A stretch of 48,537 nt of DNA from Deltaproteobacteria bacterium (GTDB lineage: Bacteria; Myxococcota_A; UBA9160; UBA4427): assembly GCA_029261835.1 (NCBI GenBank), contig JAJDAO010000005.1, forward strand, positions 1 through 48,537, written 5' to 3'. The stretch's first letter is position 1; every line of letters starts with the position of its first letter. Below are positions 12,901 through 38,333 of this stretch, piece after piece. The translations under genes and the position numbers were made by a program. A model generated the notes under the pieces. It saw nothing but the letters and a program-made list of their open reading frames with translations, made no database searches and had not been told where the DNA came from.

Positions 12901-12901
12901 T

Positions 12902-13414: not shown

Positions 13415-13691
13415 TTGCCAATCCCCCCATTTTGGCGCTGGCCATCAGATACGCCCGCCTGCTCCGATGCTCCCGAGACCCTGGACGAGCTGCGGCAACT
13501 TGGAGTGGGCGTCTTCGAGCGCTCCCAGGGCCTCGAACGTGCTGCCAGGGTAGCGGGTTCTGCATGGGCTCGTCGTCGCCGAACGAGGCCAATGCCCGGA
13601 GTCACCGAGGGCCAGCTCCCACACCCAGAGCCACGAGCCGACTACTCACACACACCGCTCGCAGCTAGAGTGTGGAGCGGAGGACTTGCCC

Positions 13692-14825: not shown

Positions 14826-14980
14826 ACGTCCAAAGGCGCGGTCATGAACGGGCGTCTTCAGGCCTGAGGTGGGCGCCCCCCCCAACACCTGGTCGGTGGG
14901 TACGCCCGGAGCGACGATCGCGTAGACACGCCGATGCCTGACGATTATCCTGCTCGGAAGGACAACAAGCCGGAGAGCCA

Positions 14981-15868: not shown

Positions 15869-15901
15869 TTCGCCCCGTGCCGTCATGGCTCGTTTCCATT
15901 G

Positions 15902-23114: not shown

Positions 23115-23130
23115 TGGCACACCTCCTGCA
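23115..23130 (+). promoter_or_regulatory. Candidate sigma-54 (-24/-12) promoter
   Basis: The sequence TGGCACACCTCCTGCA matches the RpoN consensus TGGCACG-N4-TTGCA at 14 of 16 counted consensus and free positions, with the essential GG at 23116-23117 and GC at 23128-23129 in the exact 10-bp spacing. Transcription would begin near 23141, about 145 bp before the NHL gene. It is the only clear promoter ahead of the cytochrome cluster. In Geobacter many cytochrome and pilus genes are RpoN-dependent, which fits. The activator that must bind upstream is not identified. Confidence 0.65.
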
Positions 23131-23284
23131 CTAGAGAGAATCAGAAACATCCTCAGAAGGCCCGCCACCGTGGGCCTCTCGATTCAAAACCGCACTAGAC
23201 GGCACTACAGGAAGGTCGCTGCTCCTTGCTATCGAGTTTCAATCACTGTTCATCGGCGGATTGCAAAGCGCGGAGAGACCGCAC

Positions 23285-24247
23285 GTGTTGAAGCATTCAG
23301 CAAAAATACTCAGCGTCTCCAGCATCTTGCTGATGATGGTGCCCGCGAGCTTCGCGCTTGCCGAAACGACGGCGTCGTTCCGCTACCCGCTCTCCAACTT
23401 CACGGGCCCGGTGCCCTCACAGTGGGCCAAGCTGGCAGTCGATCCCGAGCGCAACGAAATCTATGCCCTGAATCAGTATCAGAACGACATCCGAATCTTC
23501 GACGAACACGGTATGGAAATCTATTCGTTCGGAGAAGAGTTCGTCAGCGCGACCGATATCGCGATCGGCGACGACGGAGACGTATACGTTCTGACAAAGA
23601 GCCACGCAGCCTCGACTCTCCACCTCTGCGACTACAGGGGCGAGCCCACCTCCGAGATCGAGCTGAAGAACCTGCCCGCCGAGTTCTCGAGCTTCAGAGC
23701 AGACCGCTTGGTGTACGCGCAGGGGGTGCTCTATCTAGTTGATTCAGGCCGCTTGCTGGTGGCTGTGGTGGACTCCGATGGCTCCTTCAAGCGAGGGCAC
23801 GATCTCGACGCGACTCTGAAGCAGCTCACGGTCGGTGACAAGCGGACGAAGGAAAAGCGTCTCGCGGACATCTCCATGCACGGATTCGACGTCGACAAGA
23901 ACGGCAACATGCTCTTCACCGTGCCGACCCTGTTCTCCGCCTTCAGGATGTCTGCCGACGGCGAGCTCGAGGGGTTCGGCAGGGCCGGCAGTGGACCGGG
24001 CAAGTTCGGCGTCACCGGGGGCATTGTCGCCGATGCGGAGGGGCGCATCTACGTGTCCGATCGCCTGCGGTGTGTCGTCCTGATTTTTGATGAGAACTTC
24101 GAGTTCCAGTCCGAGTTCGGCTTCCGCGGCGACAGGCCGTCCAACTTGATCGTGCCAGACGATCTGGCAATCGACAACAACGGCAACGTCTACGTTGCCC
24201 AAGCTGCAAACAGGGGAGTGAGCGTCTTCAGCGTCACTTCCAAGTGA
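23285..24247 (+). CDS. Secreted NHL-repeat beta-propeller protein
   Basis: 320 aa. GTG start at 23285 with GGAGAG about eight bases upstream. Signal peptide SSILLMMVPASFALA. The rest is a six-bladed NHL-like propeller: AKLAVDPERNEIYALNQYQN, ATDIAIGDDGDVYVLTKS, GFDVDKNGNMLFTVPT, GGIVADAEGRIYVSDRL and DDLAIDNNGNVYVAQAANRG. Such propellers bind proteins and lack catalytic residues. It is the first gene behind the sigma-54-type promoter and precedes the OmcS-like gene by 227 bp. NHL proteins lie beside omcS in Geobacter (from memory), so I infer a role in export, folding or stability of the nanowire. A TTG at 23261 is a less likely start. Confidence 0.85.
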   Translation: MLKHSAKILSVSSILLMMVPASFALAETTASFRYPLSNFTGPVPSQWAKLAVDPERNEIYALNQYQNDIRIFDEHGMEIYSFGEEFVSATDIAIGDDGDVYVLTKSHAASTLHLCDYRGEPTSEIELKNLPAEFSSFRADRLVYAQGVLYLVDSGRLLVAVVDSDGSFKRGHDLDATLKQLTVGDKRTKEKRLADISMHGFDVDKNGNMLFTVPTLFSAFRMSADGELEGFGRAGSGPGKFGVTGGIVADAEGRIYVSDRLRCVVLIFDENFEFQSEFGFRGDRPSNLIVPDDLAIDNNGNVYVAQAANRGVSVFSVTSK

Positions 24248-24364
24248 ACAACCCAGGTTACCGGAGAGAACAAGATGGAGCTTCTTTCTCGAACCGTCAT
24301 CAGCGAGGGAGGGAATAGAGCGACAACACAACTGCTCTCGAAGGGCAGTGACCAGCGAAGACGA

Positions 24365-24446
24365 GTCGGTTATCCGACCGCCAGTATTCTTCGAAACCGC
24401 AACGAATGACCTAGGAGCGAGTCAATCGACATCGCATCACCTAGGT
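24365..24446 (+). promoter_or_regulatory. Two inverted repeats upstream of the omcS-like gene
   Basis: GTCGG-TTAT-CCGAC (24365-24378) makes a small hairpin, and ACCTAGG (24409-24415) pairs with CCTAGGT (24440-24446) around a 24-base loop. Both lie in the NHL-omcS gap, 30-110 bases before the omcS start. They could be operator, mRNA-processing or protective structures. No known riboswitch (including the GEMM type that controls cytochromes in Geobacter) is recognisable here. Confidence 0.35.
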
Positions 24447-24474
24447 AGAGGCAAAAGGACGAGGTAAAAGGACC

Positions 24475-25650
24475 ATGATGAAGCTAAATCGTATGATGCT
24501 GCTCGGGCTTGCACTGGTTGCCTTCCTTACTCTTGGAATCGGCGGTGCGGCCTGGGCGTTCCATGACGGTGGCGTTGCTCACTGCGACGGATGCCACAGC
24601 ATGCACCAATCAGCAGACAACCCGGTCAGCGGAACTCCCAACGACACGTTGCTGAAGGGCTCGGATGCCAGCTCCACCTGCCTGAACTGCCATGGCGGTG
24701 GTGGTACGAGTTACCATATCAGCAGCACCGACGGCTCGGCCCGCAACCAAGGTGGTGATTTCTATTGGATGACAAAGGACTACACCGTTGTCGTCCGTGG
24801 AACCCCGGTTCTCTACGGCAAGGACGACCACGGTCACAACGTCATTGCTGCAGACTTCACAATGCTGGTCGATGCCGATCCCGACAACGCCCAGGCACCG
24901 GGTGGCACTGTCTACAACGCCACCGATCTCGGCTGCAACAGCTGCCACGATCCCCACGGCCAGGTGCTCGGTGGTACGGCCGCTGGCGGCGCTGCCATCT
25001 CGGGGTCAGGCTCCTACGGGGCCACGGCACCGGTAGACGGGTCGATTCTCGGCAACTACAGGCTCCTGCGAGACACGGGCTCGGTTGCTCCCGGTGGCAT
25101 GGCATTTGGTACGCCTGCTCCCATCGCAAGGGCCACGAACGTTTCCGGCTCTTCCTATGGCGCGATTGTGGATTACGGATCCGGAATGTCTGAGTGGTGC
25201 GCCAACTGCCACACCACTTACACCGATGGTGCTCAGAAGCACCCGGCCGGCAACGCCGAGCATCTGTCCGCCGGTTATGCTGCCAACTACAACGGGTACG
25301 TGGCTACTGGTGACTTCACGGGCGTGCTCGCCTCCGCGTTCGACGGTCTGGTGCCGTTCGAACGAGGCGTGACTGACGGGAGTCTGCTCTCGGCTGCTCC
25401 GGTTGCGGGTGCTGACACCAGCTCGAATGTCATGTGCCTTACCTGCCACAGGGCTCACGCCTCAGCGAATGCGAACGCGGGCAAATGGGACTTCGAGGTC
25501 GAGCTGCTGGTCGAGTCCCACGCTCTGGTGTCTCCGGACGTGCCCGCGGGCGCGGCGGTCTACTACAAGGATGCCGTCGTAGTGGATATCGCCACCGACT
25601 ACGGACCGTACCAGCGGTCGCTGTGCAACAAGTGCCACGCGAAGGACTAG
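24475..25650 (+). CDS. omcS: OmcS-like hexahaem extracellular cytochrome (nanowire subunit)
   Basis: 391 aa with six CxxCH sites at about residues 37, 69, 154, 242, 321 and 384. The signal peptide ends at AWA28, giving a mature start FHDGGVAHCDGCH that parallels OmcS. Further agreement with OmcS as I remember it: SSTCLNCH, GGDFYW, GHNVIAADF, APGGTVYNATDLGCNSCHDP, GMSEWCANCHT, KHPAGN, SNVMCLTCHRAHAS and the terminal GPYQRSLCNKCHAKD. OmcS forms filaments with a continuous haem chain that conduct electrons out of the cell. Purine-rich bases precede the ATG. The gene sits between an NHL gene and channel-like and chaperone genes, as in the Geobacter omcS-companion cluster. Filament formation itself is inferred from homology. 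Confidence 0.9.
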   Translation: MMKLNRMMLLGLALVAFLTLGIGGAAWAFHDGGVAHCDGCHSMHQSADNPVSGTPNDTLLKGSDASSTCLNCHGGGGTSYHISSTDGSARNQGGDFYWMTKDYTVVVRGTPVLYGKDDHGHNVIAADFTMLVDADPDNAQAPGGTVYNATDLGCNSCHDPHGQVLGGTAAGGAAISGSGSYGATAPVDGSILGNYRLLRDTGSVAPGGMAFGTPAPIARATNVSGSSYGAIVDYGSGMSEWCANCHTTYTDGAQKHPAGNAEHLSAGYAANYNGYVATGDFTGVLASAFDGLVPFERGVTDGSLLSAAPVAGADTSSNVMCLTCHRAHASANANAGKWDFEVELLVESHALVSPDVPAGAAVYYKDAVVVDIATDYGPYQRSLCNKCHAKD

Positions 25651-25714
25651 GCGTGATCACTTAGCGATCCAGAACAGACGCCGGCAGAACTCGGCGTAAC
25701 GACAACAAGAATGG

Positions 25715-25757
25715 CAAGAGAGGCTGTCGGTATGAGAATACCAGCAGCCTCTTCTTG
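25715..25757 (+). terminator. Long hairpin after the omcS-like gene
   Basis: Arms CAAGAGAGGCTG and CAGCCTCTTCTTG (one bulged T) plus inner GGTAT-GAGA-ATACC form a stem of about 17 pairs with a GNRA-type GAGA loop, 65 bp after the stop. No T-tract follows, so it may be a partial terminator or a 3' stabiliser giving the cytochrome more mRNA than the downstream genes. Confidence 0.55.
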
Positions 25758-26223
25758 TCTGGTGATGGCCCTCTTCGGGTTTCAACCTCCGATCGCAGGT
25801 GTCGAGCGTGCGCAAGCGCGGGAGAAGCCGGCCCAAGAGGGTCATCACGGCGCTATTCATCGTGCTCGCCCGAGTCTGGCGACTGGCGATGCGGCCTGGG
25901 GACACCGTGAGAGGCCAGTGATCGACCGGTGGGGGGGCCTGCAGCGAGCCAGCAGTGAACACCGCGGTACACGAATCCGCCACAATTGACTATTCTGCAG
26001 GGAGACTGAGCGGGCTTCGCGAGGGGCGACGGCTGGCAGTCCGGCAGATGTCGCAGATGGCATAGTCGATGCCACAGTATCGCCATGGCGGTGATGGGAG
26101 CCGGGAGATGGAACTACTGTCTCCCGAGTGAAGTCAAACATGATGGGAGCGGCGCTCGTGACCGACTCTCACCCTCGCACAAGAGACGGCGGGGAATCGA
26201 CCCGTCAAGAAGGCCACCCACCC
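25758..26223 (+). promoter_or_regulatory. Non-coding stretch with candidate promoter and hairpin
   Basis: No credible gene. TGGCATAGTCGATGCC at 26058-26073 keeps the GG-N10-GC spacing of a sigma-54 promoter and is also a perfect inverted repeat (TGGCAT/ATGCCA). CGGGAGA/TCTCCCG at 26102-26108 and 26120-26126 makes a 7-bp hairpin. Either could control separate expression of the companion genes that follow. Confidence 0.35.
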
Positions 26224-27630
26224 ATGTTGGGGAAACGCATACCCGGCGTCATGCTGACCTTGCTCCTGGTCGTCGCCTGCCTGCCCCGGCTCGCCTCGTA
26301 TCCGCCCGCTCTCGATACTGAAGGTGTGCTCCACCTTTATCTGCAGCCGATCCCTCGAGAGACACATCGCCTTCACTTCAGCATCGACGCCATCTCCGCG
26401 GTTCAGAGCGACGGCAGAGCGATCCAGCTTTCAGCATTGTCGACCGAGCTGGGAGGGAAGGGGGTCGCTGCCGCTCAAAGGCGGCTGGCCACGGCCACAC
26501 TCCCACCCGCCACCTACAAGGGCATATCGATCCGGATCGCCAGAGCCTCACTCCTCAGTGAAGAAGGTGCCAGCGATCTGCTGATTCCCGCTGAGCCCCT
26601 GCTCATCGAGCACGAGTTCACCGTCACTCGCCGGAGAGCCAGCACGCTCTTCCTCAGCCTGGCCCCGAAGGACATTGTCAGCGCTGGCTTCCGCTTCTCG
26701 CCCGAGTTCACCTTGACCAAGCCAGAGCGCCAGCTCAACAGTCTATTGGGCTTCGCGACCAACCCGGCGACGAATACGGTCTCGGTCTTCAACAAGAACT
26801 CCATGGAGGTGGTCGACACGATCGCGATGAGCAGCGGCCCAAAGGGCGCGGTTCTCGATCAGATCCGGGGCTGGGTTTACGTCGCTCTCGCCGGAGATGA
26901 CAGCATTGAAACGATCGCGGTCGGAACGGGCGAGACCGTGGGTCGGGTTCGTTTGAACTTCGGCGATGAGCCGGTCGAGATCGCCTTGACCCCCGACGGA
27001 GAGACACTCGTATCCGCCAACTACGGTTCGAATTCGGCCAGCATTGTCAATGCGACCTCACTGCGCGAGGTCGGCAGGGTCAACCTCCCCTCACAACCCA
27101 CGTCGGTCGTGATCGGTACAGTGTCGCCGCGAGCCTACCTCCTCCAGCCCCAGTCCAACACCCTTTCCGCGATCGATTTGACGAGAGGACAGCTCACCGC
27201 GACCCGCATTCTCGAAGAGGCCCCCATCCGTGGAGCCATCGGTGAAGATGGGAATAGTCTCTACGTCATCACGCAGAACTCGCCGGACCTGCTCGTCCTC
27301 GATTCGACGACTCTGACTCTCCTCAACCGGATCTTCGTCGGTGTCGGTGCTGCTTCCGTGAAGGTCGATCCGAGAACCGGCTTACTCTATGTTGGCAAGG
27401 AGAGTGGGGAGATTGTCGTGATCGATTCATCATCACTGGTATTCATAGATACGTTTCGCGTAGGCGGGGAGGCAGCCAATCTGGCAATAGACAACGACCA
27501 GAACGGTCTCTTCGTCATCTTGCCAGACGCGAGGGCGCTTCAGAAGCTGGATCTGGTCAGCAAGAGGCTTCTGGGGGCGATCGACGTGGACGAAGGGAGC
27601 TATGCCGTTGTCGTAATGGGGGAGAGATAG
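26224..27630 (+). CDS. YVTN beta-propeller lipoprotein (OscD-like position)
   Basis: 468 aa. The chosen ATG at 26224 gives a lipoprotein signal MLGKRIPGVMLTLLLVVAC with the lipidated Cys at 19. Residues about 30-165 resemble a DUF4382-type domain (VLHLYLQPIPRETHRLHFSI, LPPATYKGISIRIARASL). The remainder is a seven-bladed YVTN-like propeller (LLGFATNPATNTVSVFNKNS, VEIALTPDGETLVSANYGSN, RGAIGEDGNSLYVITQNS, SVKVDPRTGLLYVGKESGE). In Geobacter sulfurreducens the omcS-companion cluster encodes a beta-propeller-like protein OscD that affects nanowire morphology; the position ahead of channel and chaperone genes fits that role. An in-frame GTG at 26128 would not give the lipoprotein signal. It is separated from omcS by a hairpin and 573 bp. 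Confidence 0.8.
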   Translation: MLGKRIPGVMLTLLLVVACLPRLASYPPALDTEGVLHLYLQPIPRETHRLHFSIDAISAVQSDGRAIQLSALSTELGGKGVAAAQRRLATATLPPATYKGISIRIARASLLSEEGASDLLIPAEPLLIEHEFTVTRRRASTLFLSLAPKDIVSAGFRFSPEFTLTKPERQLNSLLGFATNPATNTVSVFNKNSMEVVDTIAMSSGPKGAVLDQIRGWVYVALAGDDSIETIAVGTGETVGRVRLNFGDEPVEIALTPDGETLVSANYGSNSASIVNATSLREVGRVNLPSQPTSVVIGTVSPRAYLLQPQSNTLSAIDLTRGQLTATRILEEAPIRGAIGEDGNSLYVITQNSPDLLVLDSTTLTLLNRIFVGVGAASVKVDPRTGLLYVGKESGEIVVIDSSSLVFIDTFRVGGEAANLAIDNDQNGLFVILPDARALQKLDLVSKRLLGAIDVDEGSYAVVVMGER

Positions 27631-27801
27631 GATCAGCTGCACCGCAATGAGATGGAGAGAGACGAGCCCGTCCCCGCGAGCCTCACTCGTCCCACCGCGA
27701 GTCAAAGAAGTTGAAGAAGTCAAGCGCCCAAGACAAGAGATCTCCACTTCCGACACAATTCTGCTGCAGCATGGCTGCAGTCCCTGCCCGCCGAGTCCAG
27801 A

Positions 27802-29979
27802 ATGCCAAAGAGAGCTGCTCTGTGGAAAATGCTACCGCCGGCGTTCCTCTGTGCGATCGTCCTTTCGCCCGTGACTGTCGCGGCTGAAGGCATTCGAATA
27901 CTGGGCGACTGGGAATACGTCAGCTCGCGTACCGATATCACCCAGAAGGACGACGGGACAGAGATAGACCTCAACCATGCCAGGATCTCGCAATTGTACG
28001 ATGTAGACATACAGAAGCAGATCTACCCAAACCTGGATTTTCGCACAGGTGGCCTCTTTGAGTTGCAGGATTCGAGGACGACGCGCAATGGAGCCAAGAC
28101 GACATTCGAGGAGCAGACGGGTAGATACTTCGGCGAGCTCAAGCTGAATACTCCGCTGTACCGAGCCGGTGCAGCCTATCGCAATACTCGAGTGAAGACG
28201 GATCTGACAGATTTGCCCAAGCAGCGCATCTTCCGTGAGCAGTACGACGGTGTATGGGGATGGCGACCGGCGGGCCTGCCGTCGATCAACCTGAACTACA
28301 GTCGCGCCCGCACCTATGATGAGCCGAAGACGAGAGACTCGCTGAGCGGATCGCTTACTCTGAGGAGCGAGTACCAGTACGAGAAGCTCGCGTTCGACTA
28401 CATGTATACGCGAAACGACACTGAGGAAGCGCTCGCCGACTCCGCGCTGTTGAGTCAAGTGCATCACGGCGGCGTTCGCTATTCGACCAGGCTCTTCGAC
28501 GGCCAGCTCTCAGTCGCTGGCGCTTCCTCGATGAGCTATCGAAGTGTCGCGCGATCGGGGACAGGTGATATCAAGCTGCAGACGACTTCTCCTCAGAGCT
28601 GGTTCTATCTGCTGACTGACCTCACACCGGACGACAACTTACCCGGCGAGTTCGAGGTTGTTGGCGCTTCGAACCCTCTCACGAGTGTGGATATCGGCTC
28701 GGACGGCCCGGACAACCTCGTGAGCTTCGGGCTGGCGTTTGCTTCTCCGACTGAGGTAGACACGGTTCATGTCCTGCCGCTGGAAGACGTTCGCGATCTC
28801 ACGTTGGCATCACCGAGCGAGATCAGTGCTGGCGCGAGCAATTTCAGCTGGCAGATCTTTAGCAGTGATGATCAGGAGACCTGGACCGAACACACCCCCC
28901 GGAGCGCGGTGTACAGTGCGTTCGAGAGCCGCTTCGAGATCGAGTTCGATTCCGTTGAGGCGGGCTACATCAAGGTCGTAGTCGAACCACTCGCGGATGT
29001 CCCGCAGTCACGAAAGATTCTGATCTCCGAGGTGCGAGCATTTACCACCATCCCCCGGAGCGCGGGGCTCGAGATCACGGAGCTCGATCAGACCTACAGC
29101 TTGGGGCTTGGTTGGACCGCCTCGGAGAAGACGACGGCGAGCTATGACACCTTCGTGAAGGTCAGAAGCAGTGAGCCGCTCTCCACGAGCAGGACGAGAG
29201 TGTCGAATAGCTTCAGCGTTCGACACATCATCAGCCCTGTGTTCGTCGGGAATGCGCGCTACCTGACGTCGGCCGACACGGACTCGGAGAGACCCACCAC
29301 GATCCAGCACTCCTATGTCGCCTCGATCAGGGGCGACTACCTCGATACGTTCAGGCAGACGCTCAGCTATAGTGGGTCGAGCAGTAGCGAGATAGGGGGT
29401 TCCAGCACGACCAACACCCTGTTCCTGCGCAATAAGGCGGATCTCTACAGAGACTGGAGCGTCAACGTCGACGGGGGCTTCTCGTGGAACAGCCCGGCCG
29501 GCGGCGGAACGTCTACGAGCACGCTTCTCAGGATCGGAACGCATTTGGTGCCGAACAGAAGGATGAACCTTCGTCTCGACTACACGATTGCGAGAAACTC
29601 CCAGACGGGACGCCCGGTCAGTCGCGATCAGACGGGCAGCCTCCAGGCGTTTTGGCTCCCTGTGCGGACGCTGAGCTTGTTCGCGGCGGTTTCGTTGAGG
29701 GATAGAGATACGGGTGCTGGGAGTGAGGCTCCGACCGTATCGCAGGACTATGCGATCAATTGGGCTCCATTCCCGGACGGCGCCGTGCACTTCGCGCTTC
29801 GCTACGGCCGGGCGATGAGTACCGAGGGGCGTGAATCCGAGACCCTCACGCCGGAGATCAGGTGGGAAGTCGCACGTGGGATAGTGGCGAGCGTGACGTA
29901 CAGTACTGGCACGGTCGAGACGGCGACAGAAACGAGCGATGTGAATACGTTCACCGGGAAACTCAGAATCGCCTACTAG
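27802..29979 (+). CDS. Outer-membrane beta-barrel with inserted discoidin-like domain
   Basis: 725 aa. Signal peptide LPPAFLCAIVLSPVTVAA. Residues 30-285 and 415-725 show alternating amphipathic strands of 9-12 residues, many with aromatic ends (RYFGELKLNTPLYRAGAAYR, SLSGSLTLRSEYQYEKLAF, RMNLRLDYTIARNSQ, VHFALRYGRAM), and the protein ends in LRIAY, a typical barrel C-terminus. Between them residues about 285-415 look like an F5/8C discoidin domain (NPLTSVDIGSDGPDNLVSFG, SNFSWQIFSSDDQETWTEHT, GYIKVVVEPL, SEVRAF). No CxxC/MtrB-type motif is seen. I infer the pore for the cytochrome or electron conduit, perhaps one of the channel-like Osc proteins. It leads directly (30 bp) into the CsgG-like genes. 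Confidence 0.75.
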   Translation: MPKRAALWKMLPPAFLCAIVLSPVTVAAEGIRILGDWEYVSSRTDITQKDDGTEIDLNHARISQLYDVDIQKQIYPNLDFRTGGLFELQDSRTTRNGAKTTFEEQTGRYFGELKLNTPLYRAGAAYRNTRVKTDLTDLPKQRIFREQYDGVWGWRPAGLPSINLNYSRARTYDEPKTRDSLSGSLTLRSEYQYEKLAFDYMYTRNDTEEALADSALLSQVHHGGVRYSTRLFDGQLSVAGASSMSYRSVARSGTGDIKLQTTSPQSWFYLLTDLTPDDNLPGEFEVVGASNPLTSVDIGSDGPDNLVSFGLAFASPTEVDTVHVLPLEDVRDLTLASPSEISAGASNFSWQIFSSDDQETWTEHTPRSAVYSAFESRFEIEFDSVEAGYIKVVVEPLADVPQSRKILISEVRAFTTIPRSAGLEITELDQTYSLGLGWTASEKTTASYDTFVKVRSSEPLSTSRTRVSNSFSVRHIISPVFVGNARYLTSADTDSERPTTIQHSYVASIRGDYLDTFRQTLSYSGSSSSEIGGSSTTNTLFLRNKADLYRDWSVNVDGGFSWNSPAGGGTSTSTLLRIGTHLVPNRRMNLRLDYTIARNSQTGRPVSRDQTGSLQAFWLPVRTLSLFAAVSLRDRDTGAGSEAPTVSQDYAINWAPFPDGAVHFALRYGRAMSTEGRESETLTPEIRWEVARGIVASVTYSTGTVETATETSDVNTFTGKLRIAY

Positions 29980-30009
29980 CGGCGATGCAGGCCAGAAGGG
30001 AGGTCGGTG

Positions 30010-30582
30010 ATGGGACGGGAGAATCTCTGCAGAGGGCTGGCCAGCCTGTCGCTACTCATCCTTCTATCGGGATGTGCGGCGACGGACAACTATATCGAGC
30101 CGAATATGGACTTTGCGTCCGTAGAGAGCGTGGCCGTGCTGCCCTTTGCCAACCTCACCGGAAACGAGGATGCTGCGGAGCGGGTTCGGGACACGCTGAT
30201 GGGCATGTTGCTCGCTACCGAGGCAGTCTATGTATTGCCGCCCGGCGAAGTCGCTCGCGGCATCTCGAGGACGGGAGCGATTCCGGCAGACGGCCCGTCG
30301 GCGGAGCAGATCAAGAAGCTGAGCGGCGTCTTGAGTGTGGAGGCGATCATCACCGGTGTACTAAGAGAGTACGGAGCGGTGAGATCGGGATCCACATCGG
30401 CAAATATGATCTCACTCAGTCTTCAGATGATCGAGGTCAGCACGGGCAGGGTCGTGTGGTCGGCGTCGGCGACGAAGGGCGGCATCACGCTGCTGGACCG
30501 CCTGTTCGGCGGAGGCGGTGAGCCCATGAACGCGGTGACGGAAGAGGCTGTCGATGATCTGCTCGACCAGCTCTTTCAGTAG
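30010..30582 (+). CDS. CsgG/GNA1162-like lipoprotein, single domain
   Basis: 190 aa. GGGAGG six bases before ATG 30010. Lipoprotein signal LASLSLLILLSGC. The rest is one domain of the CsgG/LpoB/GNA1162 type: VESVAVLPFANLTGNEDAAE, RVRDTLMGMLLATEAVYVLP, LSGVLSVEAIITGVLREYG, ISLSLQMIEVSTGRVVWSAS. CsgG proteins form the curli secretion pore in the outer membrane; smaller relatives are envelope lipoproteins of diverse roles. The 3' end overlaps the next gene by 29 bp, so translation is coupled. It sits between a barrel and a second CsgG-like lipoprotein, so it may be a channel subunit for nanowire export. It lacks an obvious CsgG transmembrane hairpin, so pore formation is not established. Confidence 0.75.
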   Translation: MGRENLCRGLASLSLLILLSGCAATDNYIEPNMDFASVESVAVLPFANLTGNEDAAERVRDTLMGMLLATEAVYVLPPGEVARGISRTGAIPADGPSAEQIKKLSGVLSVEAIITGVLREYGAVRSGSTSANMISLSLQMIEVSTGRVVWSASATKGGITLLDRLFGGGGEPMNAVTEEAVDDLLDQLFQ

Positions 30583-32236
30583 AGCGTCGTGTCTCGGCGC
30601 GCTCCTGGTGTTCTCGGGTTGCGCGTCGTGGAGCGGGCCTGTGGGAGCGCCGCTTGCCTTCGTATCGCTGACTTCGGATGCGCAGGGGCCGGGGGTCGCG
30701 CGCTCGGCTGCGATTCGGTGGACCGCCCTTGCCAACGGGGGGGTCGGGGCTCGCAGATATGAGTTCAGAAGCTTGAACGGCACCGCCGAGGTGGTGGAAC
30801 AGGAGGGAACCTTTGCGACTTGGACATGGAATCCGAGGAAGGCCGGGACCTTTCGGTTGAGGGCCAGAGTCACGGACAGAGCGGGTGCTGTCGTGGACAG
30901 CGAATGGTCAGCCCCGTATGTCGTCCTGCCGCCGATCGACAGGAGCGCTCGCGTCGCCGTCTTGCCCGTGGACAATCTGACCGGAGACCGGGCGCCGGTG
31001 AGAGCGCTGGATGGATCGCTGCGCGAGCACTTGCGAGGATCCGGCTTCGATCTCCTCGACGATGAGTCCCTTGATGAGTTCATGAAGCGCCACAGGGTTC
31101 GGAACACGAGTGGCTTGAGTCAGCGGGCCTCGCGAGGGCTGGCGACGGAAACCGGGACCGAGGCGCTCCTGCTGACATCGCTTGTGGCGTATGCAGATCG
31201 AGAGCCGCCGAGGGCTGCGTTGGCCGCAAGGCTGGTCGCGCTGCGTGAGGATCCGGAGATCCTGTGGACGGACAGCGTCGGCCTCTCCGCGGCAGAGACC
31301 GCCGGGCTGTTGGGTCTTGGGCGTGTGGGAGAGGCCGAGCTTCTGCTCGAGAAGGCCGTTCAGGACCTCACTGCATCCCTGGTGGAGTTTCTGCCCGAAT
31401 CACTGCCCGCTCCAGCAGCGCTTGGCGCAGCGAATGATGCGGACTTCGACGGGGTGGAGAATAGCGATGACGTCTGTCCGGACTTTGACGACAACGTCGA
31501 CACCGACGGTGACGGTCAGCCCGACGGCTGCGATCGGTGTCCTGCCGATCCCGCTGCTGGCTCGGGCGGAGAGGGTGCCTGCAGCAGCAGCGATGGCAAG
31601 AATGGCTGGGCGAACCTGGCCCACCAGGCTCAGCCCGAACCGTGTGCCCGGTCCCCCTTCGACGACGACGAGTGCGACGACGGGGTGCTCTGCAGAACTG
31701 GGGATCTTCCCTGCGACTCGAGTTCCGAGAAGTATCGCCCTCGGACGTTCTACCGCTCCTCGTCCTTCGATACTTCCCGGAGATACTCCGTCGTCGTGCT
31801 GCCGTTCCGGAACCTCAGCGGGAGAAGGAATGCAGGGAGAATCCTGAGTCTGCATTTCGTGGAGCATCTGGCGCGAAATGCGAAGCTGACAGTCGTCGAG
31901 CCCGGGCTCGTGAGAGAGCACCTACTGAAGTACAGGATCATCATGCGAGCGGGGCCATCACTCGCGAACACGGATCTCATCTCGAGGGGCGGTTCCCTGG
32001 ACGTCGATCTGGTCCTCTCGGGAACGGTATTCGACTATCAGGATGCCATTGGCGCTCCCGAGATCGATTTTTCGGTGGAAATGATCCAGGCGCGAAGCCG
32101 CGAAGTGGTCTGGCTCTCGCGAAGCCGTCGGCACGGCGACGAAGGGGTCTTCTTCTTCGACTGGGGCCGCGCACATACGGCTCATGGACTCGCCTCGGAG
32201 ATGACGGCCAAGACGATCGAGCTGATGATGCGATGA
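30554..32236 (+). CDS. Large lipoprotein with two CsgG-like domains and a TSP3 insert
   Basis: 560 aa. Lipoprotein signal CLGALLVFSGC. Domains in order: an Ig/fibronectin-like part (residues 35-125, TFATWTWNPRKAGTFRLRAR); CsgG-like domain 1 (about 130-270, RVAVLPVDNLTGDRAPVRAL); a calcium-binding thrombospondin type 3 stretch (about 293-330, DADFDGVENSDDVC, DTDGDGQPDGC); a Cys-rich linker; CsgG-like domain 2 (about 410-560, YSVVVLPFRNLSGRRNAGRI, DVDLVLSGTVFDYQDA, ARSREVVWLSRSRRHG). With the upstream lipoprotein this gives three copies of the same fold in tandem, suggesting a hetero-oligomeric outer-membrane assembly. It overlaps the previous gene by 29 bp and ends 122 bp before the chaperone gene. 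In Geobacter the channel-like OscEFG genes occupy this position. Confidence 0.75.
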   Translation: MICSTSSFSRASCLGALLVFSGCASWSGPVGAPLAFVSLTSDAQGPGVARSAAIRWTALANGGVGARRYEFRSLNGTAEVVEQEGTFATWTWNPRKAGTFRLRARVTDRAGAVVDSEWSAPYVVLPPIDRSARVAVLPVDNLTGDRAPVRALDGSLREHLRGSGFDLLDDESLDEFMKRHRVRNTSGLSQRASRGLATETGTEALLLTSLVAYADREPPRAALAARLVALREDPEILWTDSVGLSAAETAGLLGLGRVGEAELLLEKAVQDLTASLVEFLPESLPAPAALGAANDADFDGVENSDDVCPDFDDNVDTDGDGQPDGCDRCPADPAAGSGGEGACSSSDGKNGWANLAHQAQPEPCARSPFDDDECDDGVLCRTGDLPCDSSSEKYRPRTFYRSSSFDTSRRYSVVVLPFRNLSGRRNAGRILSLHFVEHLARNAKLTVVEPGLVREHLLKYRIIMRAGPSLANTDLISRGGSLDVDLVLSGTVFDYQDAIGAPEIDFSVEMIQARSREVVWLSRSRRHGDEGVFFFDWGRAHTAHGLASEMTAKTIELMMR

Positions 32237-32358
32237 GTGCGTTCCTTGCAGAGCCAGCGGAAGAACCCGCGAGAGAGCCCACAACGAAGCTCACGGCCGC
32301 AGCACCCGTTGCAGGGCGACCGAATGAAAGCCACCGTATTGCACGCGCGAGGGAGCCA

Positions 32359-34137
32359 ATGAAGTCGATAATCCTGTCCACCGTCACTCTGCCCATACTG
32401 CTCTTCGGGCTTCCCTGTCTTGCAGAGGACGCCAGCGATGAGCCCGCCCATACGGCAGAGCCCGCAGATGCGGCAGAGAGCGAAGAAGTGCTCATCAGCC
32501 TAGAAGTCCCGCTCAGCTCTCCTCTTTTCTCCGAGACTCCGATCGCGGTCGTAGAAGACGACGTGATTACCGTCGGCGAGCTGATGGGAACCCTTTCCGC
32601 CACCCACGCGGGCCGATCGCAAGAGGGAAGCTCGCGCAAGAAGGACTACGCCAGCCTGCTGGACCGGATCATTACGACGCGGCTGATCGTGCACGAGGCC
32701 CGGGCGATCGGGTTCGATGAGCTGCCCGCGATTCGGAGCGAAATCTCGTCATACTCGACACAACTTCTGATCTCCACCGTGATGTCCCGACACCTCCTAG
32801 ATGTGGAGCCCGATGCTGCCGAGGTGGACAAACTCTACAGGACGATGTCGCGCGAGCTTCTGCTCGAAACCCTGAAATTCGCGAAGGAGTCCGACGCGCT
32901 GGCGTTCCAAGAGCGGCAGAAGTCCGGGGAGGATTTTCAGAAGTCAGCGGAAGCCTTCATCGAAGAGCGTCGAGCAGAGGGGCAACTCGGCGGGCAGGAG
33001 TACGTGCGATTGAAGGACATGCTGCCCGCGGTCGCCCAATCGGCCTTTGCGATGGAGGTCGGCTCCGTCAGTGAGATCTTCACTGCACAAGGCGGCTTTC
33101 TCCTCTTCCGTGTTGTTGATGCTCGCTTCTACGAGGATCCTTCGCTGCGGGCCGAGGCCCGCGCGAAGGTTCTCGAGCCGTTGAGAAAGCAGAAGGGAAA
33201 CGAGTATGGCGAGCTGCTCGAGCAGCGGCACGCGACGGTGGACGAAGCACTTTTCGAGGAAGTGAGCTTCGAAGCGAAGAAGGTAGGTTTCCTCTGGTTC
33301 AAGAAGGAGAAACCCGTTGACTACGAGAAGCTACTGCTGGACGAGAGGGTGCTCGCAACGGTGCACGATGAAGAACCCCTGATCATCACGGTCGCCGACC
33401 TGGCGAAGGAGCTGCAATCGAAATTCTACCATGGGGTCGATAATTCGCTCGAGGGGAAGAAGGATCTCGACAAGAAGAAGCGGATCACCTTGAAGAACAT
33501 GGTGTTCAAGAGAGCCGCACAGCTGGAGGCACGAGCCCAGGGGATCGATGAGTCGGTGGGGTACCTCGCCGCGGTCGATGAGCACACGAACTCCTTGCTC
33601 TTCGGGGCATTCATCAAGAAGGTCGTCGCTCCGGATGTGAAGATCTCGGAAGAGGAGGTTCGGCAGCACTTCGAAGAGCATCTCGGCGAGTTCTCGACGC
33701 CGAAGATGGTTCGATTGAGAGGACTCGCCTTTCACACCCTGGAAGATGCGGAGCGTGCCATGAAGAAGATGAGAAGGGGAGCTGATTTCTCTTGGGTTTC
33801 CGCAAATTCACGTGGCCAGGTGAACAAGGATGCAAAGGGGCTCCTCGTTTTCGACGATAAGCTGCTGACGGTTCCAGCCGTGCCCGAAGGCTTGCGCGAG
33901 AAAGCCAAGAAGGCGAAACAGGGTGACTCGCTACTCTACTCCGATCCAGACGGGTTCCACTACGCGATCAGCGTGACGAGAGTTTTCGCTGCCACGCCGA
34001 AGCCCTACGAGAGTGCCAGAGAAGAGATCGGCAAGGAGATAATGGGCGAGAAGGTCAGAGAGCTGGTTGCCGACTGGGGTTCACAGCTCAGAGAGGGCTA
34101 CGAGACCAGGGTGTTCCTCTCTGCACTTCCAGAGTAG
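32359..34137 (+). CDS. Periplasmic PpiC/SurA-like prolyl isomerase chaperone (OscH-like position)
   Basis: 592 aa. ATG 32359 follows GAGGGAG and gives a signal peptide (SIILSTVTLPILLFGLPCLA); a start at 32233 would not. The protein has the SurA pattern: a long helical N-terminal domain (IAVVEDDVITVGELMGTL, LDRIITTRLIVHEARAIGFD) followed by two parvulin-like units. Unit 1 lies at about residues 145-245 (LLLETLKFAKESDALAFQER, GGFLLFRVVDARFYED). Unit 2 lies at about 430-570 (EVRQHFEEHLGEFSTPKMVR, GDSLLYSDPDGFHYAISVTR). It should bind and fold secreted proteins in the periplasm. In Geobacter sulfurreducens the prolyl-isomerase chaperone OscH binds OmcS and is needed for nanowires; this gene is the natural counterpart. 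The giant cytochrome gene follows after 103 bp. Confidence 0.85.
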   Translation: MKSIILSTVTLPILLFGLPCLAEDASDEPAHTAEPADAAESEEVLISLEVPLSSPLFSETPIAVVEDDVITVGELMGTLSATHAGRSQEGSSRKKDYASLLDRIITTRLIVHEARAIGFDELPAIRSEISSYSTQLLISTVMSRHLLDVEPDAAEVDKLYRTMSRELLLETLKFAKESDALAFQERQKSGEDFQKSAEAFIEERRAEGQLGGQEYVRLKDMLPAVAQSAFAMEVGSVSEIFTAQGGFLLFRVVDARFYEDPSLRAEARAKVLEPLRKQKGNEYGELLEQRHATVDEALFEEVSFEAKKVGFLWFKKEKPVDYEKLLLDERVLATVHDEEPLIITVADLAKELQSKFYHGVDNSLEGKKDLDKKKRITLKNMVFKRAAQLEARAQGIDESVGYLAAVDEHTNSLLFGAFIKKVVAPDVKISEEEVRQHFEEHLGEFSTPKMVRLRGLAFHTLEDAERAMKKMRRGADFSWVSANSRGQVNKDAKGLLVFDDKLLTVPAVPEGLREKAKKAKQGDSLLYSDPDGFHYAISVTRVFAATPKPYESAREEIGKEIMGEKVRELVADWGSQLREGYETRVFLSALPE

Positions 34138-34141
34138 TCGG

Positions 34142-34181
34142 ACTTGAGTAGAGCCTCGCGAAGCGCGAACTGAATTCAAGT
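34142..34181 (+). terminator. Nested hairpin between chaperone and giant cytochrome genes
   Basis: Outer arms ACTTGA/TCAAGT and inner arms TCGCG-AAG-CGCGA form a structured element in the 103-bp gap. No T-tract; it may limit read-through or protect the message. Confidence 0.35.
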
Positions 34182-34240
34182 GGAGCTGCGACAGCAGCGA
34201 TCAGGCAATAGTACGCAAGAATGGGATGACCTGAGAAGCA

Positions 34241-37200
34241 ATGTTCAGCGGACAATCACATACTAGAATAGTCTACACAGGCCTAGTCATCTTCTGCTGC
34301 AGCCTCCTCTTCCTGAGTGCTGCGACATCCTCTGATGCAAAGAAGCGCAAATTCCAGAGAAAGCAGTGTCTCGACTGTCATGAGGAGTTCGTCGAAAAGT
34401 ATTTCTCGATGGACAGCATCCATGACGTCGTGAAAGACAAGAAGTGCGAAGGCTGCCACCTGCGTCACGGGCTCGTCGGCAAGTTGCTACTGAAGGAGGA
34501 GCGCAACGACCTCTGTTTGGAGTGTCATCCGGCGGAAGATCTACAGCTAGACGCCGGAAGCGTACACACAGCGCTGAAGAAAGAGACGTGCATCTCGTGT
34601 CACAATCCGCATGCGTCCGACTCGCCATTCCTGCTGGCCGCAGAGGGTAATGCCGTTTGCTTCGAATGCCATCAGGAGGAGGACTACAGCAAGGACGTGG
34701 CTCACGAGGTAGTGGGCGAGGACGGCTGTCGGGCCTGCCACTTCGCCCACGCATCCAGCGAGGAGAATCTGCTGACGCAGGCTCCGACGGAGCTCTGTCT
34801 TTCGTGCCACGAGATCGACACGGATGGATTCGAGGCCGGCCATGGCGGATACGCAGTGGAGGAGAGGTCATGCACAGTCTGCCACGATCCACACAGTGCG
34901 GCGCAAGAGAAGCTGCTGAAGACGAGCTCCCATGACCCAACGGCCAGTGCCGAGTGCGACGCGTGTCACAACGAGGCGTCCGAGGCCGATGCTTTTGGCG
35001 TTCTCGATGAGGGTGCGGAGCTCTGCTTCACCTGTCATGACCCGGAGGACCTCGCCGAGAGCACCGCTGTGCAGCATGAGCCCTTTGAGGAGGGTTCGTG
35101 CCTCGAGTGTCACGATCCGCACACTTCCAACCAGCAGTCGCTGCTCGTAGAGCCGAGTCTGGAGCTCTGCCTCGGATGCCATGAAGAGAAGGGAATGGAG
35201 GTAACGACGGAGCACGAGCCGTTCGAGAGCGAGGAGAGCTGCGTGTCGTGCCACGCGCCCCACGCAGCAAGTCACGACGGCCTCTTGAGTTCCACGCCCG
35301 GTGAGCTGTGTCTCTCTTGCCACGAAGAGACGCAGGAGAAAGCGCAGAGTCTGGACAATCTTCACGATCCATTCGAAGAAGCGGAGTGCGGCGAGTGCCA
35401 TAATCCACACGGCTCGAACGCTCCAAGCATGCTGGTCGATCGGCCGGACATGGTCTGTTACTCATGCCACGTGGAGCTCGAAGCCGAGTTCCTGCAGTTC
35501 AACACACACACGCCCGTGCAGCGGGGAAACTGCATTGCCTGTCATAGCGGGCATGGGTCGAATGAGCCGAACTTTCTAAAGGCCAGCGAGTCGGATCTCT
35601 GCGTGGATTGCCACGAGGAGCTGATGGAGGAGGATCCGAGAGCGACAGTTCATGATCCATTCGAAGGAGGCGAGTGCCTGACGTGTCACAACCCGCATTC
35701 CAGCCCCGAGGCTGGCGTGCTGAATGATGCGCAGAGCGTCTTGTGCTTCGAGTGCCACGACGAGATGGGGGACGAACTGTCTGCCGCAGAGAGCAAACAC
35801 AAGCCTGTCGCAGGCGGTGAGTGCACGAGCTGCCACAGCCCGCACAAGGCAACTCTGGATACGCTGCTGTTGGCCAAGAGCCCGGATCTCTGTCTCGGCT
35901 GCCACACAAAGCTGGAAGAGAAGATCGAGGCGGAGAGAGTGCACTCACCGGTGGAGGAGGACTGCCTGGAGTGTCATTCTCCGCACTTCTCCGCCGATCA
36001 GCCGCGGCTCTTCGTCGCACCACTGCAGTCGCTGTGCGCAGAGTGTCATGAGGTGGACGACGACGACTTCAAGGAGGCGCACGGCGGGATAGAGGCTTCG
36101 GCGGTGCAATGTACCGCGTGCCATGCTCCACATACGTCGAAGGATCCGATGTTCTTCAAGGAACAGATGCATTCCCCGTTCGTGAAGCGCGAGTGTGGGG
36201 AGTGTCATGTGGTTCCGCCGGAGAAATCGACACACGAGCTGAGGCTGAGAGACGGTGCGGAGGGAGAGCTGTGTATCGGCTGCCATGACGAGATGCAGGA
36301 GACTCTGAAGAGAGCTTCCGTGCACACGCCGGTAGAGGATGGGGAGTGTTCCTCATGTCACAGCCCGCACACTTCCGATTATGAGAAGCTGCTTGCCGCG
36401 ACGCCGGAGACGATCTGTTACGAATGCCACGATGACATCGTGCCGTCGGGCGCGTTGAGCGTCCATCAGGTCGTGGTCGAGGGTCAGTGTGTATCGTGCC
36501 ACGATCCGCATGGCTCGGACAATGAGATGAATCTGGTGCGCGCCGGCAGTCAGCTCTGCTTCGGGTGTCACGAGGAGATGGGCGACAGGACGAAGAATGT
36601 CGAATTCGAGCACGAGCCTGTAACGGAAGACTGCCTCGAGTGCCACAACCCCCACGCCTCAGAGAGCGGCCCGAAGCTTCTCAAGGATGCACAACCGGCT
36701 CTGTGCTTGGAGTGCCATGAGACGGACAAGTCCGTCTTCAAGAAGAAGCATGAGAACTATCCGGTGGAGACGGGTCGCTGCAGCTTGTGTCACAATCCCC
36801 ATGGTTCCGATACGAGGGGGATACTCTACGACAACGTGCACGACCCGGTCGCAGAGCGAGAGTGCAATGAGTGCCATGAAGATGCGACATCGTCGACCCC
36901 CTTTGCACTCAAGGAAACTGGCTATGAGATCTGCGAGGGATGCCACTACGAGATGGTGGCGGACACGTTGAACGAGAGACGTGTGCATTGGCCACTGCTG
37001 GACAAGACCGGCTGTATCAACTGCCATACGCCCCATGCCTCTGCGCAAGAGAGTCTCCTGAAGAAACCGATGCTCGACCTCTGTGGCACGTGCCACGCGG
37101 ATACTGTGGCGCGTCAGGAACGCTCGCCTACCGAGCACCCGCCGGTCGCGGAAGGCGAGTGCATGGAATGCCATTCGCCGCATGCCTCCGAGAATCTCTT

Positions 37201-37426
37201 CTTGTGGAACGAAGCCTCACCAATGGACTTGTGCGAAACATGCCATGAGTGGCAATCGCATTCGACGCATCCGATTGGTGCTGAGGTGATTGACCCGAGG
37301 AATGCGAACGTCACGCTGCAGTGCCTGAGCTGTCATCGAACGCACGGGACAGAGTACGAGCACTTCATCTACTTCGGGACCACGGACGATATGTGCATCC
37401 AATGCCATACGGATCTTCGGAGGTAG
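34241..37426 (+). CDS. Giant multihaem c-type cytochrome with 42 CxxCH motifs
   Basis: 1061 aa. An N-terminal export segment (GLVIFCCSLLFLSAA) is followed by 42 CxxCH haem-attachment sites between residues 43 and 1056, one per about 24 residues. I counted each by eye. They form doubled units: a CxxCHE-type site, then about ten residues before the next Cys a conserved His (VHDP, EHEP, VHSP), then CxxCH followed by xPH (CHNPH, CHDPH, CHSPH). The His residues can supply bis-His ligation. The haem mass alone would be near 26 kDa. Apart from haem repeats there is no other domain. It could be a very long periplasmic or surface electron wire linking the barrel region to OmcS filaments. It directly precedes an NHL gene (4 bp). 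I know of few cytochromes with this many haems. Confidence 0.95.
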   Translation: MFSGQSHTRIVYTGLVIFCCSLLFLSAATSSDAKKRKFQRKQCLDCHEEFVEKYFSMDSIHDVVKDKKCEGCHLRHGLVGKLLLKEERNDLCLECHPAEDLQLDAGSVHTALKKETCISCHNPHASDSPFLLAAEGNAVCFECHQEEDYSKDVAHEVVGEDGCRACHFAHASSEENLLTQAPTELCLSCHEIDTDGFEAGHGGYAVEERSCTVCHDPHSAAQEKLLKTSSHDPTASAECDACHNEASEADAFGVLDEGAELCFTCHDPEDLAESTAVQHEPFEEGSCLECHDPHTSNQQSLLVEPSLELCLGCHEEKGMEVTTEHEPFESEESCVSCHAPHAASHDGLLSSTPGELCLSCHEETQEKAQSLDNLHDPFEEAECGECHNPHGSNAPSMLVDRPDMVCYSCHVELEAEFLQFNTHTPVQRGNCIACHSGHGSNEPNFLKASESDLCVDCHEELMEEDPRATVHDPFEGGECLTCHNPHSSPEAGVLNDAQSVLCFECHDEMGDELSAAESKHKPVAGGECTSCHSPHKATLDTLLLAKSPDLCLGCHTKLEEKIEAERVHSPVEEDCLECHSPHFSADQPRLFVAPLQSLCAECHEVDDDDFKEAHGGIEASAVQCTACHAPHTSKDPMFFKEQMHSPFVKRECGECHVVPPEKSTHELRLRDGAEGELCIGCHDEMQETLKRASVHTPVEDGECSSCHSPHTSDYEKLLAATPETICYECHDDIVPSGALSVHQVVVEGQCVSCHDPHGSDNEMNLVRAGSQLCFGCHEEMGDRTKNVEFEHEPVTEDCLECHNPHASESGPKLLKDAQPALCLECHETDKSVFKKKHENYPVETGRCSLCHNPHGSDTRGILYDNVHDPVAERECNECHEDATSSTPFALKETGYEICEGCHYEMVADTLNERRVHWPLLDKTGCINCHTPHASAQESLLKKPMLDLCGTCHADTVARQERSPTEHPPVAEGECMECHSPHASENLFLWNEASPMDLCETCHEWQSHSTHPIGAEVIDPRNANVTLQCLSCHRTHGTEYEHFIYFGTTDDMCIQCHTDLRR

Positions 37427-37430
37427 TTCG

Positions 37431-38333
37431 GTGAGAAGAGCGCTTCATGTTCTGATCATCTCGAGCGTTCTGCTGCTGCCGTCCTGGGCGTTCGCCGGGG
37501 ACCTCAGGAAGCTGAGATGGGTCAACTCGATCTACTCGGATGCGGCGGGCGGAGAGCTCAATCGCCCGGAGGGCGTCGCCTGCAGTGAGGATTCCTTCGT
37601 GGTGGCCGACACGGGAAACAGTCGACTGCTGAGCTATCGCTATTCGGATGAGGCGGTCCTGCCGACGGCAGCGTTTCCGCTGCCACGATCCATGCCGCTT
37701 GTGGTTCAGATGAACTCGAAGGGGGACTTCTACTTTCTGGATGGTAGGGTGCGCCGGATCGTCGTCGTGGGGCCGGCCGGAGAAGCAAGAGGGGCCGTGA
37801 CGCCCAAGGGCGTGCGGTCGCCGAAGAAGATCATCCCGAAGAGCTTCAGAATCGACGCGGACGACAACATCTACATCCTCGATATCTTTGCCGAGCGCGT
37901 GCTCGTGCTGGATCCGCAGGGCGGCCTCCTGAGGCGGTTGCCCTTCCCAGACGGGCATGGCTTTCTCTCGGATCTGGCGGTGGGTCCGGCTGGGAAGATC
38001 TTCGTCTTGGACAGCGTAGAGGCGGCGGTCTATTCCGCGGCGACGGGGGCGAAGGAGTTCTCTCGACTCGGCGAGGGGATGAAGGAGTACATGAACTTCC
38101 CGACGAGGCTCGAGGCAGACGACAGGGGGATCCTCTACCTGATCGACCAGCACGGGAGCGGCCTCGCGCTGGTGTCACAGGATGGCGAGTTCCTGGGGCG
38201 GAGACTCGGGATGGGCTGGAACGAGAGCCTTCTGTACTACCCGTCTCAGATTTGCGTCAGCAGGGGCGGCAATGTTGGGATCGCGGATCGGAACAACAAT
38301 CGCGTGCAGGTGTTCCGACTGATGGGCGAGTGA
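37431..38333 (+). CDS. Secreted NHL-repeat beta-propeller protein, second copy
   Basis: 300 aa. GTG start with GGAGG seven bases upstream, overlapping the end of the 42-haem gene so closely (4-bp gap) that translation is coupled. Signal peptide VLIISSVLLLPSWAFA. Propeller repeats: NRPEGVACSEDSFVVADTGN, LVVQMNSKGDFYFLDGRVRR, FRIDADDNIYILDIFAERVL, LSDLAVGPAGKIFVLDS, RLEADDRGILYLIDQHGSG, QICVSRGGNVGIADRNNNRV. It resembles the NHL gene at 23285 in length and repeat style and may be a partner of the giant cytochrome as the first copy may be of OmcS. It ends 72 bp from the convergent second OmcS gene. Confidence 0.85.
   Translation: MRRALHVLIISSVLLLPSWAFAGDLRKLRWVNSIYSDAAGGELNRPEGVACSEDSFVVADTGNSRLLSYRYSDEAVLPTAAFPLPRSMPLVVQMNSKGDFYFLDGRVRRIVVVGPAGEARGAVTPKGVRSPKKIIPKSFRIDADDNIYILDIFAERVLVLDPQGGLLRRLPFPDGHGFLSDLAVGPAGKIFVLDSVEAAVYSAATGAKEFSRLGEGMKEYMNFPTRLEADDRGILYLIDQHGSGLALVSQDGEFLGRRLGMGWNESLLYYPSQICVSRGGNVGIADRNNNRVQVFRLMGE

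Follow-up and report, generated by a model that had tools for sequence, protein, structure and literature searches.

Geobacter sulfurreducens carries an eight-gene block, GSU2500-GSU2493, which comes after the OmcS-like gene GSU2501 and is described as a "nanowire secretion" block (PMC12977616). For the products of its OmcS-companion (osc) genes, Shen et al. 2025 proposed a role in folding for OscH, in secretion for OscE-G, and in morphology for OscD, and OscI (GSU2495) and OscJ (GSU2494) are given as periplasmic cytochromes (PMC13194489); GSU2495 carries 26 haems (PMC12977616; PMC2996986). The fast electron route from the inner membrane through the periplasm to the surface wires is called unclear, and direct charging of the wires by PpcA-E has been proposed (PMC10954620). 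Here, we compare with these systems a stretch of 48,537 nucleotides from a Deltaproteobacteria bacterium (assembly GCA_029261835.1, contig JAJDAO010000005.1; "the window"), which is the complete contig C5 of a 6.5-Mb genome bin that is 95% complete. We found that the region 23.1-38.3 kb reads as an osc-type cluster, an assignment confirmed via synteny in G. sulfurreducens relatives, and that OscI and OscJ are joined there in one gene encoding a 42-haem cytochrome.

The main surprise of the locus is this 26+16 fusion and its bearing on OscI and OscJ. We favor, with a probability of about 0.57, a reading in which a hexahaem cytochrome would be the wire subunit, the products of oscD to oscH would be its companions, and OscI-OscJ would carry electrons through the periplasm to the wire along a single haem rod of fixed length. 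The cytochrome, which by its sequence is OscI fused to OscJ, and its joint are as follows:

34241-37426, + strand: 42-haem cytochrome of 1061 amino acids (aa) with exactly 42 CXXCH motifs
36221-36244, + strand: approximate fusion joint (residues ~661-668), where the OscI stop codon and the OscJ signal peptide are absent relative to loci L082 and L083

The OscI part (residues 1 to ~660) has 26 haems and the OscJ part (~665-1061) has 16. The window joint is SPFVKRECGECHVVPPE-KSTHELRLRDGAEGELCIGCH; at this place the nearest relative, L082, ends OscI, starts an OscJ that appears to begin with a signal peptide, and then matches again. OscI with 26 CXXCH motifs is followed by OscJ with 16 in 12 of 12 loci with both genes complete. 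When 43 osc genomes were searched with the window protein, 42 matched (G107 did not); in 41 of these the protein matched in separate pieces whose border lies near residue 660, and in G111 a single match was interrupted by a TAG stop. Hence, none of the 42 other matched osc genomes, two of them from the same order, has a fused single open frame, and the open reading frames (ORFs) of the loci agree.

Haem number is constant in both parts. Among 40 distinct OscI ORFs uncut by locus ends, 38 have 26 motifs, and the other two are fragments (7 and 18 motifs) of one interrupted gene in L045; all 33 distinct OscJ have 16 motifs. Pairwise identity of OscI is 43-95%. The spacing between haem 26 and haem 27, across the joint, is 26 residues, within the family median range of 23-30, and 38 of the 40 other haem spacings of the window protein equal the family median (OscI 23/25, OscJ 15/15). 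Hence, the halves are joined as if they had already been stacked end to end.

Since the contig comes from a metagenome bin and is known here without reads, the fusion might be an error of assembly or binning. This is extremely improbable: a stop codon and an entire signal peptide would have to vanish in frame, the same joint is crossed by P0070, a partial metagenome protein that is 54% identical to window residues 462-1061 and has a different linker, and the cytochrome b561 gene at the right end of the contig has a copy with 90% DNA identity over 1576 bp on contig C2 of the same bin. The fusion could also be neutral, a recent joining of genes without consequence and uninformative on the function of OscI and OscJ, and it is known from one genome and P0070. 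We consider this improbable, since the OscJ signal peptide was lost while haem spacing at the joint is normal, and since single-chain 42-haem proteins that agree in haem count and order make up an entire family.

That family came from a protein search: 75 of the 88 proteins of at least 950 aa among the best 120 of 568 matches have exactly 42 motifs, and the remaining 13 have 38 (six proteins), 35 (three), or 40, 41, 52, and 26 (one each). Where the sources of P0071-P0154 are named, they are the FCB group, Zixibacteria, Gemmatimonadaceae, GN15, Krumholzibacteria, and Latescibacterota. Our literature search on 42-haem cytochromes found nothing relevant among the papers listed.

To place the window fusion, we used a maximum likelihood tree of the 26-haem part with 60 of 109 rows (28 of 77 fused and 32 of 32 split), in which the window row is flagged for unusual letter make-up and some single-chain proteins have long branches and are loosely placed. 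The window row forms a group (support 100/100) with split genes from two same-order genomes, and this group lies within the split clade of 33 rows (100/100). On this tree, two changes are needed for the fused state, and 0 of 200 bootstrap trees permit one. Hence, regardless of which state came first, the window fusion has an origin separate from that of the other single-chain proteins. Membership of the window protein in the large single-chain 42-haem group was considered and is rejected by its position inside the split osc clade.

Two further joined proteins were seen. P0137, which is OscJ-like and has 16 haems, carries a SPOR domain (2e-7) at its N terminus; SPOR domains bind peptidoglycan, and the domain is a hint of periplasmic placement. 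In P0170, a PPIC isomerase is fused to a 26-haem OscI-like cytochrome, which brings OscH- and OscI-type functions into one chain.

The remaining features of the cluster and its edge are as follows:

23115-23130, + strand: sigma-54-type (-24/-12) promoter-like site TGGCACACCTCCTGCA, matching 10 of 11 consensus positions
23261-24247, + strand: NHL/6-bladed propeller, first cluster gene (Pfam DUF5128 1.2e-9, NHL 4e-5; likely GTG start 23285)
24475-25650, + strand: six-haem OmcS-like cytochrome, predicted filament subunit (6 CXXCH; OmcS 6ef8 5.9e-64)
25713-25759, + strand: strong RNA hairpin without a T run, between the OmcS-like gene and oscD
26128-27630, + strand: OscD-type YVTN/YncE propeller, putative lipoprotein by a lipobox read by eye (likely start 26224; TIGR03866 2.7e-22, under the model cut-off)
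27802-29979, + strand: OscE-type predicted outer-membrane beta-barrel (AlphaFold2 mean predicted local distance difference test score 86.1)
30007-30582, + strand: OscF-type GNA1162/CsgG-like lipoprotein (GNA1162-like 2.2e-6; CsgG 0.0069, under its cut-off)
30554-32236, + strand: OscG-type lipoprotein (sole family match a weak TSP_3; 2e-75 to H2geo)
32359-34137, + strand: OscH-type double PPIC prolyl isomerase, SurA-like (Rotamase_2 7e-21, Rotamase 1e-6; best start 32359)
37431-38333, + strand: second NHL protein (NHL 4.7e-17)
38406-39542, - strand: second OmcS-like six-haem cytochrome, convergent to the cluster (OmcS 2e-63) and overlooked in the initial annotation

Every gene that the initial annotation had named was recovered on the + strand, and the nine cluster genes span 23.26-38.33 kb. 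Its two CsgG-like lipoproteins fared unequally: the label suits 30007-30582, with the CsgG match below cut-off, whereas for 30554-32236 it came from reading only. This OscG has 560 aa versus mostly 365-450 aa in relatives.

To assign the genes, we compared OmcS directly among the G. sulfurreducens proteins and the rest through the loci of relatives. An OmcS-alignment scan of named genomes matched 178 stretches, of which 150 were confirmed and the best 80 kept, giving 75 loci whose ORFs were compared with the window genes. We found that 35 loci carry D, E, F, G, and H together, and that the same block is present in Citrifermentans bremense R1, Geomobilimonas luticola, H2geo, and L1geo. For H2geo (L068/L069), the matches to the window are 5e-94 for D, 5e-43 for E, 8e-60 for F, 2e-75 for G, 8e-110 for H, 5e-214 for I, 5e-157 for J, and 2e-80 for the last NHL protein. 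We take Citrifermentans bremense R1 to be G. bremensis and Geomobilimonas luticola to be G. luticola. G. bremensis, G. luticola, H2geo, and L1geo are named among the genomes with the block GSU2500-GSU2493 (PMC12977616, mBio 2026). In the window, all eight modules D-E-F-G-H-I-J-K are in order, with I and J within one gene, and a hexahaem OmcS-family gene is directly upstream. Hence, the synteny survey bears out the osc-type order D-E-F-G-H that had been proposed for this DNA.

The same survey contradicts the accompanying claim that the organism extended the cluster with a giant cytochrome and two NHL proteins. The first NHL gene lies upstream in 31 of the 35 loci (it is missing from L006, L008, L024, and L025, two of which have <6 kb of upstream sequence), all 11 loci whose OscJ is complete have a homologue of the closing NHL gene, which is the last gene of the block in the place of GSU2493, and the giant cytochrome consists of the usual parts OscI and OscJ. 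We therefore reject all three as additions. L078 and L075 have the cluster genes in two units that diverge from each other, NHL-OmcS-D-E on one side and H-I-J-K on the other; this arrangement hints at separate modules, one for export and one for folding/conduction.

The sigma-54-type promoter of the initial annotation is supported, too, and such sites also precede this first gene in other phyla. TGGCACACCTCCTGCA is the sole site reaching 10/11 among nine sites listed in the window (one-strand shuffle mean 0.5). Upstream of the first NHL gene, 11 of 42 regions, the window included, reach 10/11 and 31 fall below, against a base-shuffle expectation of 0.23; the sequences of L050 and L052 are identical, so ~10 of the 11 are independent. 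In the same-order genome G062, the site upstream of the first gene scores 11/11. For comparison, GSU2506, two locus numbers ahead of omcS in G. sulfurreducens, is given as a sigma-54-dependent regulator (PMC10599522). The hairpin region (136 nt) has a z score of -4.65, with 0 of 200 shuffles equally stable; the hairpin is absent from the terminator-scan listing and is a possible attenuator or mRNA-stabilizing stem.

To judge the hexahaem cytochromes, we compared them with OmcS, which is the sole PDB match of the 24475-25650 product with E no higher than 0.1, covering its entire mature length, and the best PDB relative of both window hexahaems. Mature OmcS has 17 histidines, and 12 of these are conserved in both window hexahaems and in a third copy on contig C21, namely the six CXXCH histidines and positions 2, 16, 110, 147, 257, and 335. 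All 12 OmcS ligand histidines are thus present. We take His16 to be the ligand shared between subunits. For OmcS, 12 histidine ligands are described, one of them donated by the adjacent subunit (PMC6584659). Of the 42 hexahaems compared, 5 have lost the histidine at position 16, and three of these (L047, L049, and L056) come from loci without any block gene found.

Some side observations concern these cytochromes. The hexahaems of L047, L049, L051, and L056 and their relatives are OmcS-like paralogues with Pro or Gly replacing His16, several of them in block-less loci, and 12 of 105 collected hexahaems are without the CXXCHxxH pattern at haem 1; hexahaems without His16 or this pattern are possibly unable to polymerize. 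In L039 (Anaeromyxobacter soli), a locus without D-K, a 2029-aa frame with 49 CXXCH motifs (11487-17576) lies directly 3' of the OmcS-like gene.

Three points weigh against a wire made by the window hexahaems. In a tree of 41 rows, they fall outside the OmcS clade proper, in a deep separate clade (support 100/99). We know of no filament from this clade. Wire formation is presented as known for OmcS itself only (PMC12977616). The hexahaem might therefore be exported by the cluster but remain a monomer or short oligomer, in which case the block would be a cytochrome secretion system, with wires only in the OmcS branch. A prior secretion function is one option raised for the block, which is described as always occurring with GSU2501-type proteins and not always with omcS (PMC12977616). 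We hold this to be unlikely, since the window proteins keep all 12 ligand histidines, including position 16, and since three of the five losses at that position are in block-less loci.

To characterize OscE, which has no Pfam or NCBIfam match, we used its AlphaFold2 model, a large beta-barrel with ~28 predicted strands and an inserted domain at residues ~267-418. The first Foldseek match is MtrB (6r2q_B, E 5.3e-9, template modelling score 0.40). The finer aligner VIA-align returned generic barrels, with MtrB not in the best 50 rows, which argues that the MtrB match is unspecific, and a profile search of PDB sequences with OscE did not find MtrB.

From these parts, we infer a filament, its export, a haem rod, and its charging. 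The hexahaem OmcS-like cytochrome would polymerize into the extracellular wire; OscH would help exported subunits fold, OscE with the OscF and OscG lipoproteins would form an outer-membrane passage and collar, and OscD and the NHL propellers would cap, shape, or tether. OscI and OscJ of other bacteria would dock end to end, as they are joined in the window. By analogy to MtrA (~80 A for 10 haems), OscI-OscJ would form a ~34-nm rod of 42 haems at ~8 A each. Electrons would enter via an inner-membrane quinol oxidoreductase and exit through OscE into the filament.

Several points speak against this rod. Its length is a per-haem estimate, and the AlphaFold2 models are without haem. Strictly conserved sequences might by themselves keep the haem number constant, without any rule on length, and some related single-chain proteins have 38 or 35 haems. 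The periplasm is reported to be <30 nm wide in most microbes and >40 nm in G. sulfurreducens (PMC10954620); a ~34-nm rod spans the former but not the latter, and therefore membrane partners in G. sulfurreducens would add the rest. In addition, PpcA-E are reported to charge OmcS directly in vitro (PMC10954620).

To look for such shuttles, we searched for the C7 family (PF14522, PpcA type). In the source genome, 46 stretches matched at E up to 0.01, none in frames of <217 aa, and the two smallest matching frames encode four-haem proteins. Of eight other osc genomes, searched with an E cut-off of 1e-6, four show a match within a 112-159-aa frame; the smallest matching frame of G062 encodes a five-haem protein, and a 206-aa frame of G111 encodes a small trihaem protein, which weakens the rod reading. 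The C7 search found no PpcA-like small trihaem protein in the source genome, G062, G071, or G123. Overall, a small C7-type candidate is present in 5 of 9 osc genomes (5 of the 8 others) and OscI/J in 9 of 9, the genomes being incomplete. Hence, OscI/J may have another task in those five.

These results bear on a rival in which OscI and OscJ store charge or serve as a platform for hexahaem assembly, while small shuttle cytochromes carry the current. Electron injection into OmcS by PpcA-E, the wide G. sulfurreducens periplasm, and the five genomes with small C7-type proteins agree with it, and P0170 ties OscI to folding no less than to conduction. We find it doubtful, since the four genomes without a PpcA-like match all have OscI/J, since a store needs no exact 42 haems, and since the OscI/J fold is of the MtrA type.

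The same genome has a second, distant wire-like cluster on contig C36 (L084, 62000-81900). Its hexahaem cytochrome has 466 aa and matches OmcS at 9.6e-12 with ~25% identity and 11 of 12 ligand histidines aligned; the cluster also encodes propellers, three more multihaem proteins, an NHL protein, two lipoproteins related to F and G (1e-13 and 2e-15), and a 42-haem protein with 35% identity to that of the window, for which no match at E up to 1e-60 was found in 59 other relatives. A 614-aa protein appears barrel-like and has no Pfam match; its homology to OscE was not supported (hhalign probability 6.5%). The order barrel, lipoprotein, lipoprotein, 42-haem protein, NHL protein is the osc block order minus the isomerase.

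In its most far-reaching form, which we put forward only tentatively, the proposal is that OscI-OscJ would be a fixed ~34-nm, 42-haem ruler and cable from the inner membrane via an MtrB-like OscE to the nanowire without a diffusing shuttle, so constrained that different phyla retain it either split (26+16) or in a single chain, fused anew here, and serving the second wire system, too.

Two other haem loci were noted. On contig C21 (~159-170 kb, L085), there are two very large 13-haem proteins with an NHL protein before each. At 46956-48537 (- strand) of the window and at 1-1642 of contig C2, a protein with at least eight c-type haems and a cytochrome b561 domain is encoded, which presumably resembles CbcL-type quinol oxidoreductases and is a candidate electron entry point. 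Next to the second OmcS-like gene, 40003-43017 (- strand) encodes a fused MFS/spermidine-synthase protein, with close homologues near OmcS-like genes in L069 and L019 and weaker ones in L013, L016, and L022.

The osc genes are rare around this lineage, whose best 120 RpoB matches, where they carry a name, are labelled Deltaproteobacteria, a "Spirochaeta sp.", Myxococcota, and Myxococcales. Among 90 genomes of the class, three have OscH, and among 40 in a set of relatives, the source genome is the only one with it; OscI/J was found in 3 of 377 phylum genomes (two candidates scored per genome). This rarity would fit ancient patchy inheritance or transfer into one order. Hence, the context may be acquired, which weighs against the favored reading. 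The G+C content at third codon positions is 0.72-0.81 for the osc genes, 0.83-0.84 for the three genes to the left, and 0.72-0.84 for the genes to the right; since the osc values lie inside the right-hand range, they are no proof of acquisition.

The fusion is natural "Rosetta stone" evidence for OscI and OscJ forming one continuous 42-haem chain, and the exact haem count makes a sharp prediction, that gain or loss of haem pairs should break charging. In addition, supposed extra parts become core parts of the nanowire machinery, and the osc cluster is placed in a lineage where OscI/J had no match at E up to 1e-100 in 374 of 377 sampled phylum genomes.

Compared with the osc cluster of G. sulfurreducens, the window has the same OmcS-family gene, propeller, barrel, two lipoproteins, double isomerase, 26- and 16-haem modules, and NHL gene, and it differs in that OscI and OscJ are fused, OscG is longer, the hexahaems form a separate deep clade, and a second hexahaem gene is convergent at the 3' end. 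The single-chain 42-haem cytochromes (P0071-P0154) likewise have 42 haems in one chain and are colinear with the window protein over almost their entire length; however, they share mostly 31-36% identity with it and lie outside the osc clade, and their genomic context is known to us only for the C36 copy. For MtrAB (PDB 6r2q), no solved structure other than MtrA is significantly related to OscI/J, and MtrB is the best Foldseek match of OscE, whereas MtrA has 10 haems instead of 42, and OscE is without a sequence match to MtrB and has the extra inserted domain.

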